Virus record (IMG/VR): IMGVR_UViG_3300045965_000090 | Location: 1-22,430 of that record | Strand: one strand, 5' to 3' | DNA: 22,430 nt | DNA from: a virus | Shown: one piece after another, positions 2,762-17,232 of the stretch | How the letters are laid out: every line of letters starts with the position of its first letter | How positions within the stretch are numbered: position 1 is the stretch's first letter | The notes under the pieces: model-generated | Told to the model about the DNA's origin: nothing | The model's input: only the letters and a program-made list of their open reading frames with translations | Database searches by the model: none | Program-made: the position numbers and the translations under genes

Positions 2762-3565
2762 ATGGCGAACAAGCCGCTCGCACCCATCATCGGCGGTGCC
2801 ACCGCAGGCAACGCGCAGGCAACCGTCACGTTTGCTCCGCCCTCGAGCGATGGCGGCGCACCGATTACGAGCTATTTGGCCACGTCTACGCCCGACGGAT
2901 TCATCGGGACGGGCGCGGCGAGTCCCATCACCGTCACAAACCTCCACAACGGCACCGCCTACACGTTCAAGGTACGTGCGACGAACGAGGTAGGCACGGG
3001 GCCAGAGTCACAGGCGTCGAATTCTGTAACCCCGGCGACCGTGCCAGGCGCGCCGCTCATCGGTGCTGCTTACGCCGGAAACGCGCAAGCGATGGTTTCA
3101 TTCACGCCGCCGACAACGAATGGTGGGAGCGCCATAGTCAGCTACACGGCGACGTCGAGTCCTGGAGGCATCTCGAGAAGTGGCCCCGCGAGTCCGCTTC
3201 TCGTTGAGGGCCTCGCCAATGGGACGACGTACACGTTTAGCGTCACGGCTACCAATGCGGTCGGGACAGGCCCACCCTCGTCGGTCTCGAATGCAGTGGC
3301 ACCGAGCGCCGAGCCAACGTCGGGGCAGGCCAAGCTAGAACTCATCGACACATTCGCAACGGCCGCGATGTCGGCGCTGATTATGGCGCACGCGACACAC
3401 TCGGTGGCCCCGCCCGCGAATCACTACCTGCGTGTCGCGCAAGACGCGTACCTCGCCGCGCAGGCGATGCTTAACGCCCGCCTGGCGGCGCTCGAGAAAT
3501 TCATCCCGATGGCCATCCCGTTGGGCCTCCCAGCGCCGTTACCGCCACAACCGGAGCCACCATGA
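2762..3565 (+). CDS. Fibronectin type III repeat protein with C-terminal small phage domain; probable virion decoration
   Basis: A 267-aa protein with two tandem FN3 domains, about residues 4-93 and 94-182. Both show the FN3 signatures GNAQA-V-F-PP, GG..I.SY.A.S.P, and NGT.YTF.V.ATN.VGTGP.S..SN.V.P, and they are clearly duplicates of each other. A helical domain at about 187-245 follows, then a Pro-rich tail. FN3 and other Ig-like domains in phage structural regions are usually surface-displayed decorations thought to bind cell-surface or environmental carbohydrates; that role here is inference. The C-terminal domain resembles the whole protein encoded by the next gene, with which it overlaps by ATGA. 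The start ATG follows the micro-ORF stop by three bases; GGAAGG upstream is 12 nt away, so translation may rely on coupling. Confidence 0.8.
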   Translation: MANKPLAPIIGGATAGNAQATVTFAPPSSDGGAPITSYLATSTPDGFIGTGAASPITVTNLHNGTAYTFKVRATNEVGTGPESQASNSVTPATVPGAPLIGAAYAGNAQAMVSFTPPTTNGGSAIVSYTATSSPGGISRSGPASPLLVEGLANGTTYTFSVTATNAVGTGPPSSVSNAVAPSAEPTSGQAKLELIDTFATAAMSALIMAHATHSVAPPANHYLRVAQDAYLAAQAMLNARLAALEKFIPMAIPLGLPAPLPPQPEPP

Positions 3566-3780: not shown

Positions 3781-4136
3781 GGCGCTACCGCATCTACTTC
3801 ACGCGAGGCGGCATGCCCTGCGAGCCGTACACGATCGAGGGCGATGAAGAGTCAGAGGGCCAGCAGGCGCCGAAGCTCCAAATCATCACGGGCAAATGCC
3901 ACGAGGGCCAAGTGGCGCCCGATGGCACCCTCATCGACACCCGGCGAAAACGCGAGGAGTACAAGCGGCGGGCCGGCGTCGAGGACGAATCCGACTGCAG
4001 AGAGTTCGTTCAGAAGCGCAAGCGCGAACGCGAAGCATTCTTTCTGGGCGAGCAACCCATAGGCCCCTACCGAGAAGCAGCGGCGGAGGCCTTTCGCGAG
4101 CTACGCGAAACCAAGGGACGAGGTAGGGACAGATAA
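3777..4136 (+). CDS. Hypothetical phage protein (119 aa) between portal and scaffold
   Basis: It starts at GTG overlapping the previous stop (GTGA) and ends in TAA overlapping the scaffold ATG (TAATG). The central part, PDGTLIDTRRKREEYKRRAG followed by VEDESDCREF, resembles a motif in short proteins that sit just upstream of scaffold genes in many podoviruses and siphoviruses (a G..I.sR....e..k..G..e stretch). The C-terminal half is a charged helix rich in Arg, Glu and Lys. No enzyme motif or membrane segment is present. Position suggests a head-assembly accessory role, which is inference. Confidence 0.65.
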   Translation: MRRYRIYFTRGGMPCEPYTIEGDEESEGQQAPKLQIITGKCHEGQVAPDGTLIDTRRKREEYKRRAGVEDESDCREFVQKRKREREAFFLGEQPIGPYREAAAEAFRELRETKGRGRDR

Positions 4137-5293
4137 TGGATGAGAGTGACAACATTCACGCCGAAGCACAGGCGGCGTTCGAGAGCCTCACGGGCACGGC
4201 CGAAAGCGCACCGGAACCAGCCCCAACGCCACCACCGCCTACGCCAACGCCCGCGCAGTCCGAAGCCAAGCCGCTGGAAGTCCCCGCGCCAGCGCAGGCC
4301 GCGTCGATCGAGAAGTCGACGCAGGTAGCCCCGCAGCCCGGACGAGACGAAAAGGGTCGTTTTCTTCCGGGGGCCACCAATGGCGCGCGCACGGTGGCGC
4401 CCAAGCCAGAAGCCACGGCGAAGACGCCAGAGCCACAAGCGCCCGCGGGCACTGAAGCAGCGGCGCCACAGCCCGGAGCGACCGACGTCTCCAAGCCGCC
4501 GGTGGGGTTTGGTCCGCTGGCCAGGGCCAAGTGGGAAGCCACCCCGGTTGAGGTGCGCGAGGACATCTGGCAGCGGGAGAAGTCAGTCTCGCAGGCCCTG
4601 CGCGCCTCGACGGAGGCTAGGCAGTTTCATGACGCCTGGCAGAAAGTCTCGGCGCCCTATGAGGCGATGTTTCGCGCCGAGGGCGTGGATCACTTAACCG
4701 GCATTCAGAATCTGCTTCAGTCGATGGCGGTGCTTCATGGCCCGATGCCGTCCGCCAAAGCGGCGATTGTGGCCAGCATCATCAAAAACTATGGCGCCCC
4801 CATCGAGGGCGTGCTTCAGCTTTTGGGCGTCGACGTCAAGGACGGCCAGCTCTCGGCCGCGCAGCCGCAGGTTTCTTCCGACTGGGCGCAGGCCCAGCAG
4901 CACATCAGTCAGCTTCAGCAGCGCATCTCCGACATGGAAGCGCAGCGCGCCCAGGCCGGCGAGCAGTGGGCCAAGGGGCATGTGGCGGACTTCCGGCGCA
5001 TGCACGAATTCTACGATGATTTGAAGGACGACATCGCGAAGCTGTACTCCGCGGGCTACGAGCTCGAGGAGGCCTACGAGCTCGCCGCCTACCGAAACCC
5101 CCAGACGCGAAAGCTGGTCCAGGAGAAAGAGGCCCAGGCGCAGCTTCAACAGCAGCAGGCCCAGGCGCAAAAGGCCAAGGCGGCATCCGCCAGCGTTCGG
5201 AGCGCCCCCGTAGCGACGCCGAGGGCTCCGGTGGGGGATGACCACTACTCAGAGGCCGCGGCCGCCTACCAGGAGCTCCTCGCGCGGGGGTAG
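4136..5293 (+). CDS. Capsid scaffolding protein
   Basis: A 385-aa protein expected to guide procapsid assembly and then leave the shell. Residues ~20-125 are acidic, Pro/Ala-rich and disordered-looking. Residues ~130-240 carry the conserved core of phage scaffolds: FGPLARAKWEATPVEVREDI, a QREKSVSQALR helix, the WQKVSAPYEAMF segment, and the end of the core in IIKNYGAPIEGVLQLLGVD. Residues ~250-285 and ~315-350 are Gln-rich coiled coils, and the C-terminus is short and basic, as is common for the coat-binding end. The position upstream of the capsid gene is canonical. No protease motif is visible. Its frame overlaps the upstream TAA by one base. Confidence 0.85.
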   Translation: MDESDNIHAEAQAAFESLTGTAESAPEPAPTPPPPTPTPAQSEAKPLEVPAPAQAASIEKSTQVAPQPGRDEKGRFLPGATNGARTVAPKPEATAKTPEPQAPAGTEAAAPQPGATDVSKPPVGFGPLARAKWEATPVEVREDIWQREKSVSQALRASTEARQFHDAWQKVSAPYEAMFRAEGVDHLTGIQNLLQSMAVLHGPMPSAKAAIVASIIKNYGAPIEGVLQLLGVDVKDGQLSAAQPQVSSDWAQAQQHISQLQQRISDMEAQRAQAGEQWAKGHVADFRRMHEFYDDLKDDIAKLYSAGYELEEAYELAAYRNPQTRKLVQEKEAQAQLQQQQAQAQKAKAASASVRSAPVATPRAPVGDDHYSEAAAAYQELLARG

Positions 5294-5344: not shown

Positions 5345-5605
5345 ATGGCGGGAATCAATGGGAATGGCGGCAGCGGGAAGGACCTCTGGGTTGAAGTTCG
5401 TGAGTCCGTCGAGCAGTTGCAGTCGGACGTGGATGGCTGGGTCGATGACATCGCGGACTTGACGGACATCGTGACGCGGCTGGACAGGCGTTCTCGTCAC
5501 ATGCAGCGCAGCGTAAAGCGCTTCGGCGATCGCATCAGCAAACTAGGCGAGCGAATGAAGGCCACGGAAGCGCGGGTGGCAGCGCTCGAAGGGAAGCAGC
5601 CGTGA
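5345..5605 (+). CDS. Small coiled-coil protein (86 aa)
   Basis: The ATG at 5345 follows AAAGGGGA by about 5 nt. After a Gly/Asn-rich start (residues 1-11) nearly the whole chain is a heptad-patterned helix (roughly 12-83), for example VEQLQSDVDGWVDDIADLTD and KRFGDRISKLGERM, so it is probably an oligomeric coiled coil. There are no membrane or catalytic signatures. It is the first gene after the candidate promoter/operator and overlaps the ribbon-helix-helix gene by GTGA. I do not recognise a specific family. Possible roles include head accessory protein or partner of the DNA-binding protein; both are guesses. Confidence 0.7.
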   Translation: MAGINGNGGSGKDLWVEVRESVEQLQSDVDGWVDDIADLTDIVTRLDRRSRHMQRSVKRFGDRISKLGERMKATEARVAALEGKQP

Positions 5606-5850
5606 AGCGCGGACCGCGCGGCCCCGCTGGCAGCGCCGAGACGGCGCTTCTGGTGGGCATGAGTCGGGGACTACGCAGAGACTTGGCCAGGGCGGCGAAG
5701 CGGAGCGGCGTCACCTCGACGGAGTATGTCCGCCAGGCCATCCGCGAGCGGCTCTGGAAAACTGGCGCCCTCCCCTTGCTCGAGGCGAATAAGAAGGCGC
5801 CCCCCAGGGAGGCAGAGGGCGACGCCTTGAAATCAAACGCAGTCGCTTGA
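5602..5850 (+). CDS. Ribbon-helix-helix (Arc/CopG-like) DNA-binding protein
   Basis: An 82-aa protein starting at GTG within the GTGA overlap. Residues ~14-52 match the RHH fold: a beta-strand (TALLVGM), helix A (SRGLRRDLARAAKRSG) and helix B (STEYVRQAIRERL). The ending YVRQAIRERL corresponds to the conserved sefiR.air..l pattern. The N-terminus is basic (KRGPRGP). Proteins of this fold act as dimers whose paired strands enter the major groove. Here it would be a phage regulator encoded between scaffold and capsid. Its likely targets are the phased repeat at 5305-5322 upstream of its own operon, or the region downstream before the capsid gene; both are inference. The stop TGA lies at the start of the structured capsid leader. 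Confidence 0.72.
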   Translation: MKRGPRGPAGSAETALLVGMSRGLRRDLARAAKRSGVTSTEYVRQAIRERLWKTGALPLLEANKKAPPREAEGDALKSNAVA

Positions 5851-6107
5851 CGAGTGCACGCCTTGATGCGCAAATAGCTACGTGCCCTTCTCAAAGGCCT
5901 AGGCGAGCGCGAAATCCGCCCCCACGCCGAACGCCCCAAAGAAGAGCAAAGCGGCCCCGTCCACGGTGCCGCGCCGAGCTGGGAGCGCCATAGGCCCCCA
6001 CCTGGCTCGAAGGTCCCTTGGCGGTAACCTGGGACGCGGGAGCGCCGTGTAAGGCCCCTACCCGCGAAAGGCCGCGACAACCTCGCCTTTTGCGGAGCCC
6101 TGGGACT
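5851..6107 (+). promoter_or_regulatory. Structured 257-nt leader of the major capsid gene
   Basis: No coding frame is supported here. Five successive inverted repeats can be drawn: GCGGC/GCCGC with inner CCG/CGG (5951-5972); CGAGCTGGG/CCTGGCTCG (5975-6009); GTCCC/GGGAC (6013-6035); CGCGGG/CCCGCG (6035-6066); and AAAGGC/GCCTTT (6067-6090). The capsid ribosome site GGAG (6094-6097) follows the last. The third and fourth share base 6035 and would compete at that edge. A weak TTGACG (5847-5852) has no convincing -10. The leader could regulate or stabilise capsid mRNA, the message needed in the largest amount. Structure in GC-rich DNA arises easily by chance, so only the second and fourth hairpins (listed separately) are strongly notable. 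Confidence 0.5.
5975..6066 (+). repeat. Two tandem hairpins with a shared internal loop (candidate RNA motif)
   Basis: Hairpin A (5975-6009) has a 9-bp outer helix CGAGCTGGG/CCTGGCTCG (two G-T pairs), an internal loop AGC on one side and CCCCA on the other, then GCC/GGC closing an ATA loop. Hairpin B (6035-6066) has a 6-bp outer helix CGCGGG/CCCGCG, an internal loop AGC and CCCTA, then GCC/GGC closing GTGTAA. The internal loop and its closing pairs are the same, while outer stems and terminal loops differ yet still pair. That is the pattern expected of a selected RNA structure present twice. No homologues can be checked here. Confidence 0.5.
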
Positions 6108-7076
6108 ATGGCAGCCCCCAACGCATCCATTTCAGAAATCGCAGTCGTTACCTTGCGCAACCGGCGCGGGAAAATCGCCGACAACATCCTCAAGAACAAC
6201 GCCGGCCTGGCGCGCATCCAGCAGATTGGCAACGCGAACCGCAAAATTACAGGCGGCAGCGAGATTCTCGAAGAAATCGCTTTCGCCGAAAACGGCAACG
6301 CGTCCTGGTACTCGGGCGCAGACCCGCTGGACACCTCGGCCCGAGAGATGTTCACGGCAGCGACGTACTCGCTCAAGCAAGTGGCGGCGGCGTTCACCGT
6401 CACGGGCCTCGAGGAACTCCAAAACTCCGGGCCAGAGCAGAAGATTGATTTGGCCGCGCAGCGCGCGAAAGCGAGCGAGTCTACCCTCCTAAACCTGTGC
6501 GCCGAGGCCTTCTACTCGGATGGCACGGGCTATGGCGGCAAGCAGCTACCGGGCCTAGGCGCGTTCATCATCGCGGCGCCTACCAGCGGCTCGGCCGGCG
6601 GCATCGACCGCTCCAACACCTGGTGGCGAAACGCGGCCACTGGCTCTCTAGGCGTACCCACGTCCGCGAACATCCAGGGCTTCATGAACACCGCGTTCAA
6701 CGGTGTTGTCCGGGGCAACGATGCGCCAGACTTGATTCTCTTTGGCACCACCGTCTACGGGACGTTCGAGGCCTCGCTGCAGCCGCAGCAGCGCTTCACC
6801 GACCCAAAGATGGCGGAGCTGGGCTTCCAGTCGCTCAAGTACAAGGGCGCGGTCGTCGTCCTGGATGGTGGCATCGGCGGCAATTGCCCGGCTGCCGTGG
6901 GCTACATGCTGAACACCAAATACATCCACTGGCGCCCACACAAAGACAGAGACGTCGCCGTGATTGGCGGGGACAGAGTGCCGGTGAATCAGGACGCCAT
7001 CACGCGCATTCTGGCATGGGCCGGTGCGATGACGGTGTCGGGCATGAAGTACCACGTGTATTTCCAGGCTAGCTAG
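6108..7076 (+). CDS. Major capsid protein
   Basis: A 322-aa shell protein. It begins MAAPNASISEIAVVTLRNR, and I placed the start at the ATG at 6108, 10 nt after GGAG; an upstream in-frame TTG at 6018 lies inside the hairpin region and would add a low-complexity leader. Landmarks of this capsid family are visible: GGSEILEEIAFAENGN, the SWYSGADPLD segment, FTAATYSLKQVAAAFTVTGL, IDLAAQRAKASE, and AEAFYSDGTGYGGKQLPGLG, followed by GGIDRSNTWWRN. It is an HK97-fold family common in podo- and siphoviruses. The scaffold upstream and decoration-like protein downstream agree. No protease-processed propeptide is apparent. Confidence 0.92.
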   Translation: MAAPNASISEIAVVTLRNRRGKIADNILKNNAGLARIQQIGNANRKITGGSEILEEIAFAENGNASWYSGADPLDTSAREMFTAATYSLKQVAAAFTVTGLEELQNSGPEQKIDLAAQRAKASESTLLNLCAEAFYSDGTGYGGKQLPGLGAFIIAAPTSGSAGGIDRSNTWWRNAATGSLGVPTSANIQGFMNTAFNGVVRGNDAPDLILFGTTVYGTFEASLQPQQRFTDPKMAELGFQSLKYKGAVVVLDGGIGGNCPAAVGYMLNTKYIHWRPHKDRDVAVIGGDRVPVNQDAITRILAWAGAMTVSGMKYHVYFQAS

Positions 7077-13926: not shown

Positions 13927-15809
13927 GTGACGCACTGGATGCGCTCATCGACGAGACGCCTCCGCGAGCGGGGGATGAGCTCGACGCGCTCATCGCATCC
14001 ACGCCTACGCCAAAGGGGCGTGGCAGGGCCAAGTTGCCGGCCGTCGGCGTCGGCGAGGCGTTGCAGCAAGGAGCTGGACAAGGCGTCTATGGCCTAGGCG
14101 ATGAACTCGGCGCGGGCCTTCAGGGATGGCTGAAGTTTTTCGGCAATCTCGGCAAGGGTCCCAAGGAGGCGATGCGGCTCGCCGAGAGAACGGAGCTGCA
14201 AGCGCTCGGCGAGAATCGAGCGCTGCGAGACGCTGCGCGTACGCAGCATCCCGGCGCGTATTACCCAGCGATGATTGCCTCTGCTGTCGCAACGCCTGGG
14301 CCCAAGGGACTTAGGGAAGCAGCGTTTCTGCCCCGCCTCCTTTCGTCGGCCGGCGCTGGCTTTGTGCAAGGCGGTCTCTTCGGCGCTGGCGCATCCGACG
14401 CCCCCACGGAGGCCGGTCGCCTTAAGGACGCCGCACTGCCCGCCATCTTTGGCGGTGGAGTGGGTGGCCTCTTTACGGCGTTGGGCGCCCCTTTTCGCGC
14501 CGCTGCGCGGGGTCTCATAAAGCCTGGCCAGGCCGCGGGGGCACTCCAAAAGCTTGGCGTCGATGATTTGACGCTTGGGCAGATGGCGCCACAGAGCGCG
14601 CTCGGCAGCGTCGAGGCGGCGGCCGCAGAAACACCAAGTCTTCTGGGCACCGGCCTTCGCGCGCAAAGAGAGGGCGGCCTGGACTCCTGGCGCACAGCTG
14701 TATTGAACGCCATCCGCGCACCAGGAAAGGAGCGCCTGCAGCCAGGCACCATCCCAGAGCGCATTGCTGAGGCGCAGCGGGGCTTCGATGACATCTATGG
14801 CGCCATTAAGGCCGAACCTATTCCGGCCGAGATGGGTGGCGTCAGCATGCGTAAGGCAATGTCTGACGTGTTTCGTGAAATAACGGATGACCCATTGACA
14901 TATGCGTCACAGACCGCGCGGGACGACGTGAGCAAGTATTTACAGAACCAAGCCACCATCCTGGACAAGGTGCCCATCAGTCCTTGGCCCTCATCGCCGC
15001 TGTTGCCAGGTGGCGTCGTGTCCGGAGCGCGAGCATTGCCCGCTACGGGGGCGCAAGCGGCAGCAATGGTGCCGGCGGCGCAAAGCGCGCTAGCGCGTCA
15101 GGGCCTCGTCGTTCCGCCAAACCAAATCATTCCGCCCCTGCGCGGTTCAATTCCGGCAGAGGCCGTGATGAAGGCGCGAGAAGGCATCCGCGCCGCGAGG
15201 CGAGAAGTGCTGTCAGGGAAGAATCCCGACTATACCGCCGCGAAGTTTTTCGGTAGTGCCGAGGAGCCTTTGACGGAAGCGCTCGGGCGCTTTCTGCCTG
15301 AGGGCGCCGGTAAGGCGTTAAGGAAGGCTGATGAACAATATCGCAAACTGAAAGTGGTCGAAGACGCTGTTCGAAGCGCCGGCGATTCGCCTCAAGGACT
15401 TTTGCCACATCAGCTGTCCAGCGCAGTCAGGGCGGCTGAGGAACGCAGCAGCTACGCGCGCGGTGGCGGCGGTGACTTGCGACAGTTGGCCGGGCTAGGG
15501 CGCGAAGTCTTCGAAGCCAAGACGCGCGGCACTGGCGCCCGTCTCTTGGGCTCGATTCCCATCGTAGACAAGCTGGTCCAAGGCGGCGTCTATTTGGCCA
15601 ACGCGAACCCAACCCTAAGGCGTCTCGCGCTAGGACAGACGTGGCCACAGCGCATCGCTCAGGGCGCTGGCGGGTTGGCTAACCAGCTTAGGCTGGACGA
15701 CGCCGCGGCCAAGGCCATGAAGCTGCTTCCCATCGACGCGCTGTTGGCGCAAAGAAGACGACGGGTCATCCAAGACGCGTTGTCAGAGGAGGCCAACAAT
15801 GTCCCGTAA
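13923..15809 (+). CDS. Large internal virion / DNA ejection-type protein (628 aa)
   Basis: The N-terminus carries two copies of a short motif, DALDALIDETPP and DELDALIASTPT, followed by a basic linker (KGRGRAK). Residues ~43-125 hold the motif GEALQQGAGQGVYGLGDELG plus ...ENRALRDAARTQHPGAYYPA, which corresponds to the GA.QG..fG..DE...R....A....P hallmark of podovirus internal virion and DNA transfer proteins. Gly/Ala-rich hydrophobic helices (~128-200) could insert into membranes. The rest is helical with no lysozyme or transglycosylase motif that I can see. Together with the two upstream proteins it would form the ejection set. Its 3' end overlaps the fibre gene start by 11 nt. Confidence 0.7.
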   Translation: MSDALDALIDETPPRAGDELDALIASTPTPKGRGRAKLPAVGVGEALQQGAGQGVYGLGDELGAGLQGWLKFFGNLGKGPKEAMRLAERTELQALGENRALRDAARTQHPGAYYPAMIASAVATPGPKGLREAAFLPRLLSSAGAGFVQGGLFGAGASDAPTEAGRLKDAALPAIFGGGVGGLFTALGAPFRAAARGLIKPGQAAGALQKLGVDDLTLGQMAPQSALGSVEAAAAETPSLLGTGLRAQREGGLDSWRTAVLNAIRAPGKERLQPGTIPERIAEAQRGFDDIYGAIKAEPIPAEMGGVSMRKAMSDVFREITDDPLTYASQTARDDVSKYLQNQATILDKVPISPWPSSPLLPGGVVSGARALPATGAQAAAMVPAAQSALARQGLVVPPNQIIPPLRGSIPAEAVMKAREGIRAARREVLSGKNPDYTAAKFFGSAEEPLTEALGRFLPEGAGKALRKADEQYRKLKVVEDAVRSAGDSPQGLLPHQLSSAVRAAEERSSYARGGGGDLRQLAGLGREVFEAKTRGTGARLLGSIPIVDKLVQGGVYLANANPTLRRLALGQTWPQRIAQGAGGLANQLRLDDAAAKAMKLLPIDALLAQRRRRVIQDALSEEANNVP

Positions 15810-17232
15810 CCCAGCCGGCGACTACTCGCTCCCCGCGGGCAACCCCGTAACGACGGGCACCGTCATCAACTCCACGGTGTACAACAACACGATGTCGGAC
15901 ATCGCGGATGAAATTACCAACAGCCTGGACCGCACTGGCAACGGCGGGATGCAGGCGCCGCTCGGTTTGACGAATGGCTCCATCGTCGCGCCCTCCCTCA
16001 CCTTCAACACCGAATCCGCAACGGGCCTCTACCGGCAAGGCAGCGGGGACATTCGCTTCAGTGTGGCCGGCACTCAAGTCCAGCGCTGGACGCCTACGGG
16101 CACGGTGTTTCCGGCTGGCGCCACACTGACTCAAACCGTCGCCGACTCGACGGCACTCGACGTCACAGGCAACGGCACCGGCCCCGGCGTGGACGCCACC
16201 GGCGGGAGCTCGAATGGCACCGGTGTCGTGGGCACCGGTGGCGTGACGAACGGAATCGGGGTCGATGGCCAGGGCACCGGGAGCGGCGCCGGTGTCCGAG
16301 GCACGGGCGGTGCCACCGGGGTCGGCGTCCAGGGAGTTGGTGGCGCCACGTCTGGCGCAGGCGTCACCGGAACGGCCGCCGCCGGGAACAGCTCGGGCGT
16401 TGTCGGGACGGGCATCGGGACCGGAGCTGGGGTTTCGGGCACTGGCGGAACATCCCCTGGCGCATCAGGAGTCGAGGGCATCGGCGCAGGTGCGTCCGGG
16501 ACTGGCGTCATCGGCACGGGAGCGGGCACTGGCGAGGGCGGCGAGTTTCAGGGTGGCCCGACGGCAGGCAACGGCGTCGAGGGCGTCGGTGGCTCGGGTG
16601 GAATCGGCGTGCTCGGCACGGGCGGCGGCAACGGCGTCGGTGTGCAGGGCATGGGCGGCAGCGGCAACGGTGATGGGGTCAAGGGCTACGGCGGAGGCAC
16701 CGGCACCTCGGGCGTGTATGGCGAAGGCGGAAGCAACGGAGCTGGTGTCTGGGGGGTGGGCGGCACCGGCAACACGACTGGTGTCAGGGGCATTGCCGGA
16801 GGCTCTGGGGTGGGCGGCAATTTCACCGCGACCAGCGGGAACGCCGTCACCGCGACTTCCACGAGCGGCAAGGGCGTCGTCGCGATTGCCTCCGGCGCAA
16901 ACAGTGGCGTCGAGGGCTACAGCAACGGCGGCGATGGCGTGCTCGGCACTGCGTCCTCGGGCGGCGGCGCCGGCGTGCGCGGGGTCGCCGGGACCGGGAG
17001 TTATGCCGTCTTCGCGGACAACACCGGCGTCGGCGATGCGGTGGGCGCGCGTTCGGCGAACGGCTGCGCGGGCGTCTTCGAGGCGACGAACAACATCCGC
17101 GGGACCATCTACCTCGCTCAGGTGACGGCGGACCCAAGCTCTCCACAGAACGGAGACATCTGGATTCGCTCCGACACGAATCAATTCTGCGTTCGGATCG
17201 CCGGGACTACGCGAAGGGCCGCTCTCTTATAG
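15799..17232 (+). CDS. Tail fibre with virion-anchoring N-terminus and glycine-rich GV.G.G repeats
   Basis: A 477-aa protein; ATG at 15799 follows GAGGAGG. Residues 1-105 are a conserved tail-attachment region: SRNPAGDYSLPAGNPVTTGT, VINSTVYNNTMSDIADEITN, SLDRTGNGGMQAPL, then a LTFNTESATGLYRQGSGDIRFSV-like strand segment (given here only in part). Residues ~115-430 are a repetitive Gly-rich shaft. The C-terminus (LAQVTADPSSPQNGDIWIRS) is a short fibre-tip segment of a kind seen in other fibres, with DP..P.NGDIW. No enzymatic site or S74 domain is seen. Receptor binding is the expected role. The very high Gly/Thr/Val content produces long spurious frames on both strands. Confidence 0.8.
   Translation: MSRNPAGDYSLPAGNPVTTGTVINSTVYNNTMSDIADEITNSLDRTGNGGMQAPLGLTNGSIVAPSLTFNTESATGLYRQGSGDIRFSVAGTQVQRWTPTGTVFPAGATLTQTVADSTALDVTGNGTGPGVDATGGSSNGTGVVGTGGVTNGIGVDGQGTGSGAGVRGTGGATGVGVQGVGGATSGAGVTGTAAAGNSSGVVGTGIGTGAGVSGTGGTSPGASGVEGIGAGASGTGVIGTGAGTGEGGEFQGGPTAGNGVEGVGGSGGIGVLGTGGGNGVGVQGMGGSGNGDGVKGYGGGTGTSGVYGEGGSNGAGVWGVGGTGNTTGVRGIAGGSGVGGNFTATSGNAVTATSTSGKGVVAIASGANSGVEGYSNGGDGVLGTASSGGGAGVRGVAGTGSYAVFADNTGVGDAVGARSANGCAGVFEATNNIRGTIYLAQVTADPSSPQNGDIWIRSDTNQFCVRIAGTTRRAALL
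16141..17085 (+). repeat. Degenerate repeat array encoding the GV.G.G fibre shaft
   Basis: About twenty-five imperfect in-frame units of roughly 11-13 codons share the pattern G-(T/A/S)-G-V-x-G-x-G-G-x-x-x-G, for example GTGVVGTGGVTNG and GVGVQGVGGATSG. Neighbouring DNA units differ at many third positions, so selection is at protein level. The periodicity suggests a solenoid (left-handed or triple-stranded beta-helix-like) rod in which each unit gives a turn. Confidence 0.75.

Follow-up and report, generated by a model that had tools for sequence, protein, structure and literature searches.

The stretch of DNA analyzed here, which we refer to as the window, is a 22,430-base virus record from IMG/VR. 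A portal gene (696-2711) and a scaffold-like gene (4136-5293) are followed by the major capsid protein gene (6108-7076, + strand), whose 322 aa product matched the PHROG 9953 major head protein family with an E value of 8e-85 and has Mx8-like relatives. The nearest named capsid relatives, at 45-49% identity, come from Bradyrhizobium phage ppBjS10J-1, Stenotrophomonas phage BUCT555 and Myxococcus phages Mx8 and Mx9. Judged from the sequence and its open reading frames, a 257-nt capsid 5' leader (5851-6107, + strand) extends from the stop codon of a small open reading frame to the capsid start codon, and a likely Shine-Dalgarno sequence, GGAG (6094-6097, + strand), is found 10 nt 5' of that codon. 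The small open reading frame directly 5' of the leader (5602-5850, + strand, 82 aa) looks ribbon-helix-helix-like by eye and is a candidate regulator; its weak match (E 5e-4) is to phrog_5333, a phage family of unknown function. Elsewhere in the window, an open reading frame between the portal and scaffold genes (2762-3565) contains by eye two fibronectin type III-like repeats, and another at 15799-17232 carries many short repeats of the G-V-G-T-G type and likely encodes a fibre or collagen-like structural protein. No intrinsic terminator on the + strand, defined as a GC-rich stem followed by a U-run, was found at 5560-6130.

A sequence-only reading of the leader had described two tandem hairpins with a shared core of AGC opposite CCCYA, and for both of them the coordinates, stems, loops and core were confirmed. 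Hairpin A (5975-6009, + strand) consists of an outer stem (5975-5983/6001-6009), A5984 opposite CCA at 5998-6000, a G5985-C5997 pair, a C5986.C5996 mismatch and an inner stem (5987-5989/5993-5995) closed by the loop AUA. Similarly, hairpin B (6035-6066, + strand) has an outer stem at 6035-6040/6061-6066, A6041 opposite CUA at 6058-6060, a G6042-C6057 pair, a C6043.C6056 mismatch and an inner stem at 6044-6046/6053-6055 with the loop GUGUAA. The leader, however, harbors three such hairpins and not two. The copy that had been overlooked (5902-5928, + strand; GGCG-A-GCGCG-AAAUC-CGCCC-CCA-CGCC) was found by a motif scan and also forms in the leader's minimum-energy fold. It combines an outer stem at 5902-5905/5925-5928, A5906 opposite CCA at 5922-5924, a G5907-C5921 pair and a C5908.C5920 mismatch with an inner stem at 5909-5911/5917-5919, where GCG/CGC replaces GCC/GGC through one G-C for C-G exchange. 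All three copies fit the same order of helix, A opposite CCA or CUA, and helix, with the C.C mismatch within each inner helix, while the outer stems differ among all three. When hairpin B was folded alone with ViennaRNA, an A6041-U6059 pair was slightly favored over the A/CUA loop (-16.8 vs -15.6).

Within the window, the pattern GGGAGCGCC-N-GGCCCCNACC, which was picked post hoc, occurs exactly 2 times against 0.00 expected from 100 shuffles. A match to a looser version of the core at 4047-4071 lies inside a coding open reading frame and was dismissed. Searching IMG/VR for the exact core of the window returned, beyond the same phage, 17 other matches, which were mostly intragenic and lacked a hairpin, so this exact core is private to the window phage. 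Three contigs of the same phage (L002-L004) carry a leader identical to that of the window, and covariation therefore has to come from more distant phages. The fold energy of the whole leader is ordinary (z -1.18, with 28/200 shuffles folding equally well), and the single hairpins reach z values of -1.46 (third copy), -1.86 (A) and -2.89 (B). Comparison of the leader's energy with shuffled controls, proposed in the sequence-only reading both as a check and as grounds for discarding the structure if shuffles folded as strongly, was thus not discriminating and in the latter use would have misled. Energy alone neither proves nor refutes selected structure, and a comparison across phages is needed.

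The capsid protein was used as a query for relatives in IMG/VR, GTDB genomes and phage records, and the comparison set comprised, after dereplication, 172 leaders that precede related capsid genes (PHROG 9953, Mx8-like). Distant leaders look unrelated in sequence, yet they repeatedly hold hairpins in which an A faces CCA, for example in loci L011 (GUUAG-A-GCGC-AAAA-GCGC-CCA-CUAGC) and L272 (CUAGG-A-GCGC-GAAA-GCGC-CCA-CCUAC) and in phage Mx8 (GCGAG-A-GCC-UC-GGC-CCA-CUCGC). When all 1x3 internal loops were counted across the 172 leaders, A/CCA was present in 43 and the runner-up in 9, with 0-3 in shuffled leaders. Once 3x1 loops were added, the strand-swapped CCA/A ranked second with 12 leaders (shuffle mean 0.9, maximum 3). 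The same two loops ranked first and second (37 and 11 leaders) under a looser rule admitting distant partners, where the 95th percentile over 253 loop types was 3. About 60% of the long leaders lack a module above threshold. Since the motif had first been noticed in the first batch of loci, the counts were repeated on a held-out set of 113 leaders without blastn similarity to those seen when the motif was defined. Among all 1x3 and 3x1 loops in this set, A/CCA again came first (41/113), followed by CCA/A (13) and the next loop type (7). Overall, the leaders with the motif form 19 groups that share no blastn similarity with one another, one of which is large (15 leaders).

The stems vary between lineages and the loop is constant. 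The pair just outside the A, which was not a search criterion, is purine-pyrimidine in 39/45 leader hits as opposed to 23/49 hits elsewhere. Pair counts over 25 instances revealed many compensatory changes, which are partly built in given that the instances were chosen for pairing, and a strand test of G.U against A.C in single hairpins was uninformative (9 vs 6). The shared core AGC/CCCYA stands for A and B in the window; across phages, only A/C(C,U)A is conserved. Two further features, the C.C mismatch and the GCC/GGC inner stem, are peculiar to the window phage.

The hairpins are also unevenly placed. Between -200 and 0 of the capsid start we counted 45 A/CCA hits, or 1.31/kb, against 49 hits in the remaining 1.19 Mb of these loci, or 0.041/kb. 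This amounts to a roughly 30-fold enrichment before capsid genes, and most of 17 control loops were not raised there. The module is present in 43/105 leaders with an intergenic stretch of at least 120 nt and in 0/46 with less than 60 nt, bearing in mind that short gaps also give less room. The window element itself is directly upstream of a PHROG 9953 capsid gene. Phage LUZ24, with another capsid family, has no leader between its scaffold and capsid genes, so it provides no control. In L197, L352 and L355, A/CCA hairpins at about -200 from the capsid start also fall within the last part of the preceding coding region (CGACCCC..GGGGCCACG), and the scaffold gene may therefore contain part of the element. 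Some relatives (L005, L010 and L188) lack a leader, and between their scaffold and capsid genes the apparent end of an HNH endonuclease gene was recognized by eye (HVVPLRG..GLHVE.NLQ..).

A mostly freshwater clade allowed 45 leaders to be aligned over about 190 nt. Their consensus fold is a long rod with a direct A/CCA hairpin at its tip, where variation is accompanied by compensatory changes. In the lower rod, CAG-CCA-CCG faces CGG-A-CUG, forming the strand-swapped module, which is invariant in 45/45 leaders; the rod also has invariant unpaired blocks (CAGCCACCG, CGGACUG). The alignment folds better in the sense than in the antisense direction (-21.7 vs -14.7), and a pattern for the clade element retrieved 31 full copies from IMG/VR, 31/31 of them directly before a PHROG 9953-type capsid gene. 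In this clade, the pairing partner of the 3' arm is a site some 65 nt 5' of the capsid start. This pairing is missing in some members, and a competing helix at that site was rejected as a general model for the clade.

The window was then compared with a covariance model built from 25 relatives, the window itself excluded, and run with filters off. Hairpin A gave the second-best match (10.9 bits at 5979-6005, E 1.1), and hairpin B (8.5 bits at 6036-6065, E 5.0) and the third hairpin (8.0 bits at 5901-5929, E 6.6) were also recovered, none of the three being significant alone. However, 3 of the 14 matches with at least 8.0 bits lie inside one 257-nt stretch on one strand, where by our own calculation 0.08 would be expected, and such a cluster is unlikely by chance.

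Taken together, the module is selected, is concentrated in the capsid leaders of this phage lineage, and occurs singly, in tandem or nested and in either strand order. The sequence-only reading had taken changing bases with preserved pairing as the signature of a selected RNA structure, had regarded any role in capsid mRNA translation, stability or protein binding as inference, and had allowed that relatives without the core loop would speak against the structure. The relatives do carry the A/CCA loop, and the claim is borne out by the loop counts, the position and the held-out leaders. A selected RNA structure in the capsid leader is well supported.

How such a structure might act is suggested by a second pairing available to the leader. 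In the minimum-energy fold of the whole window leader, hairpin B is broken in favor of a competing stem (6062-6072/6085-6095, spanning 6062-6095 on the + strand). This stem shares 6062-6066 with hairpin B, pairs the GCGG at the start of the Shine-Dalgarno region and has a z of -3.55 with 0/200 shuffles as stable; the 3' arm of hairpin B duplexed with the downstream sequence gives a z of -3.81. Complementarity of the hairpin 3' arm and the following bases to the ribosome-binding region was likewise detected in L220 (z -4.0), L011 (-3.4), Mx8 (-2.7) and L256 (-2.6), and the same arrangement is found in Mx9 and L297. Strong complementarity, however, is limited to 5 of about 40 hits; other hits lack it or show a different arrangement. 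The 3' arm covers Shine-Dalgarno bases in L220 and L011 and the GCGAG adjoining the Shine-Dalgarno sequence in Mx8-type leaders, and in the window the CCGCG of hairpin B covers the GCGG of GCGGAG. Constrained folds of the window place the state with B formed 2.3 kcal/mol above the free minimum, and the state with A and B about 7 kcal/mol above that with A and the competing stem. A closed form favored by about 2-7 kcal/mol, as these folds predict, would fit a ligand-dependent switch or no switch. The potential pairing between the 3' arm and the ribosome-binding region in several unrelated lineages suggests a translational switch for capsid synthesis.

Several leaders begin close to a promoter. 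In L011, the hairpin follows the end of a consensus sigma-70 promoter by 10 nt, and the first hairpin is only a few nt from where the transcript is expected to begin; near-consensus sigma-70 promoters precede the leaders of L160, L222, L098 (BUCT555) and others. Promoters directly upstream agree with an RNA function and also with a stability role. The 17-nt spacer of the promoters in L011, L160, L222 and L098 contains a recurring inverted repeat (TTGACACGC...GCGTGGTATAAT) that is operator-like between -35 and -10. At the other end of the leader, in the last 60 nt before the capsid start of L034, L040, L147 and L055, there is a further conserved hairpin that takes in part of the Shine-Dalgarno region (CAGGUGAA..GCG..AGGCUUAACUUCAUCUGGAG); its inner stems change compensatorily, and it looks like a separate element closing the ribosome site.

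On balance, and with moderate confidence, we favor the view that the window hairpins are copies of a recurrent capsid-mRNA leader module that is predicted to be a binding site and to control translation of the capsid gene. The module consists of two helices flanking an asymmetric internal loop, a single A versus CCA (sometimes CUA), and would be bound most likely by a protein, candidates for the binder being a phage structural protein, another phage protein and a host factor. Control of capsid translation by hairpin formation is inferred from the ability of the hairpin 3' arm to pair also with the Shine-Dalgarno region in several lineages. A stabilized hairpin would withhold its 3' arm and leave the ribosome site free, whereas without such stabilization the site would be closed. 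In the window, the site would be closed by default and open when a binder, or co-transcriptional folding, holds the module. A broader proposal, which we put forward more tentatively, is that one conserved factor reads the A/CCA module in either strand order and that the translational switch sets capsid synthesis across a tailed-phage lineage ranging from Myxococcus phages to freshwater and soil phages.

Other explanations have to be weighed against these data. The hairpins might shield the 5' terminus of the abundant capsid transcript against degradation, or define where it is processed, with translation control being incidental. The capsid is the most abundant virion protein, the stems are variable, and the predicted transcript start of L011 (and, by the same spacing, of L160 and L098) is only a few nt away from the first hairpin. 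Yet protection needs neither an invariant A/CCA loop nor a purine before the A nor the equal use of both strand orders, and most lineages have no recognizable promoter directly upstream, so we regard this explanation as unlikely. Still less probable is an action on RNA polymerase, as nascent-RNA antitermination or antipausing in the manner of HK022 put. The put elements are likewise about 70 nt long with two stem-loops and act without phage proteins (PMC9378689), and a target on the host polymerase would explain occurrence in phages of different hosts. However, put sites lie behind early promoters and the A/CCA element is found only before one late structural gene, and the lineages with competing Shine-Dalgarno pairing point to translation. 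The window element, leading a late structural gene and not placed behind an early promoter, was accordingly not assigned to the put group.

The long rod of the freshwater clade, with its invariant unpaired blocks, is riboswitch-like, and the competing Shine-Dalgarno pairing would suit a sensor of a metabolite or ion as well. We nonetheless give a riboswitch only a slight chance, given that the elements always precede the same capsid gene and never a metabolic one, that a structural gene would be an unusual target, and that no Rfam riboswitch matched. The least probable reading, and in our view a very improbable one, is that the two hairpins arose by chance or by neutral duplication within GC-rich sequence and serve no selected function. 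It could draw on the ordinary energy of the whole leader, on the C.C version being private to the window phage and on A and B perhaps being a recent duplication. Set against it are the roughly 30-fold loop enrichment before capsid genes in unrelated leaders, its confirmation in held-out leaders, and the presence in the window of three copies with different stems. A neutral origin is contradicted for the motif as a whole, and a single window copy could possibly still be due to chance.

No match at the gathering score of Rfam 15 was obtained in the window or in 19 related loci, and a permissive search yielded only sub-threshold noise. We found no paper on a capsid-leader motif of the A/CCA kind in the open-licence literature, so an unseen report is possible. 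As far as the accessible parts of two reports extend (PMC2864571, PMC8040213), the phage-associated structured RNA motifs manA, wcaG, c4 and others were likewise found by comparative genomics in phage leaders, and none is described there for a capsid leader. The element represents a structured leader RNA family that had not been listed before, although its general kind is known, and its role is probably to set the amount of capsid protein made. Each virion of a tailed phage requires hundreds of capsid subunits, produced in balance with scaffold and portal, and for most of these phages the RNA-level control of this supply is unexplained. A module found ahead of one and the same gene in 19 or more unrelated leaders, those of the cultivated phages Mx8 and Mx9 included, offers a concrete and testable handle on the binder and on the gating of translation. 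It also illustrates how an RNA family can escape ordinary sequence searches when its core is tiny and the stems around it vary.

The element can be compared with several known systems. The coat-protein operator of RNA phages of the MS2 type is a short hairpin with an unpaired A on its 5' side, beside the capsid-protein gene or its neighbor. There the A bulge has nothing opposite and the loop is also read. In the A/CCA element, by contrast, CCA stands across from the A, the terminal loop is variable, and the capsid protein is of the HK97 type of tailed phages. The major capsid gene of phage T7, gene 10, is driven by a strong promoter of its own and has a structured leader, and several of the leaders described here similarly start at a promoter directly before the hairpins; no recurring internal-loop module is known in the gene 10 leader. 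HK022 putL and putR resemble the element in that they too are nascent phage RNAs, whose two stem-loops are internally irregular, but the A/CCA element lies 60-200 nt before the capsid start and no sequence relation to them was found. Finally, autogenous or factor-bound 5' leader RNAs of bacteria and phages, such as the ribosomal-protein leaders and the T4 gene 32 leader, differ from the element in that its core, an A/CCA internal loop, occurs in either strand order, is repeated 1-3 times and has a phage capsid gene as its target. Like them, it combines a structured 5' leader in cis to a single gene, a short conserved recognition core, stems that vary and an alternative pairing around the Shine-Dalgarno sequence.
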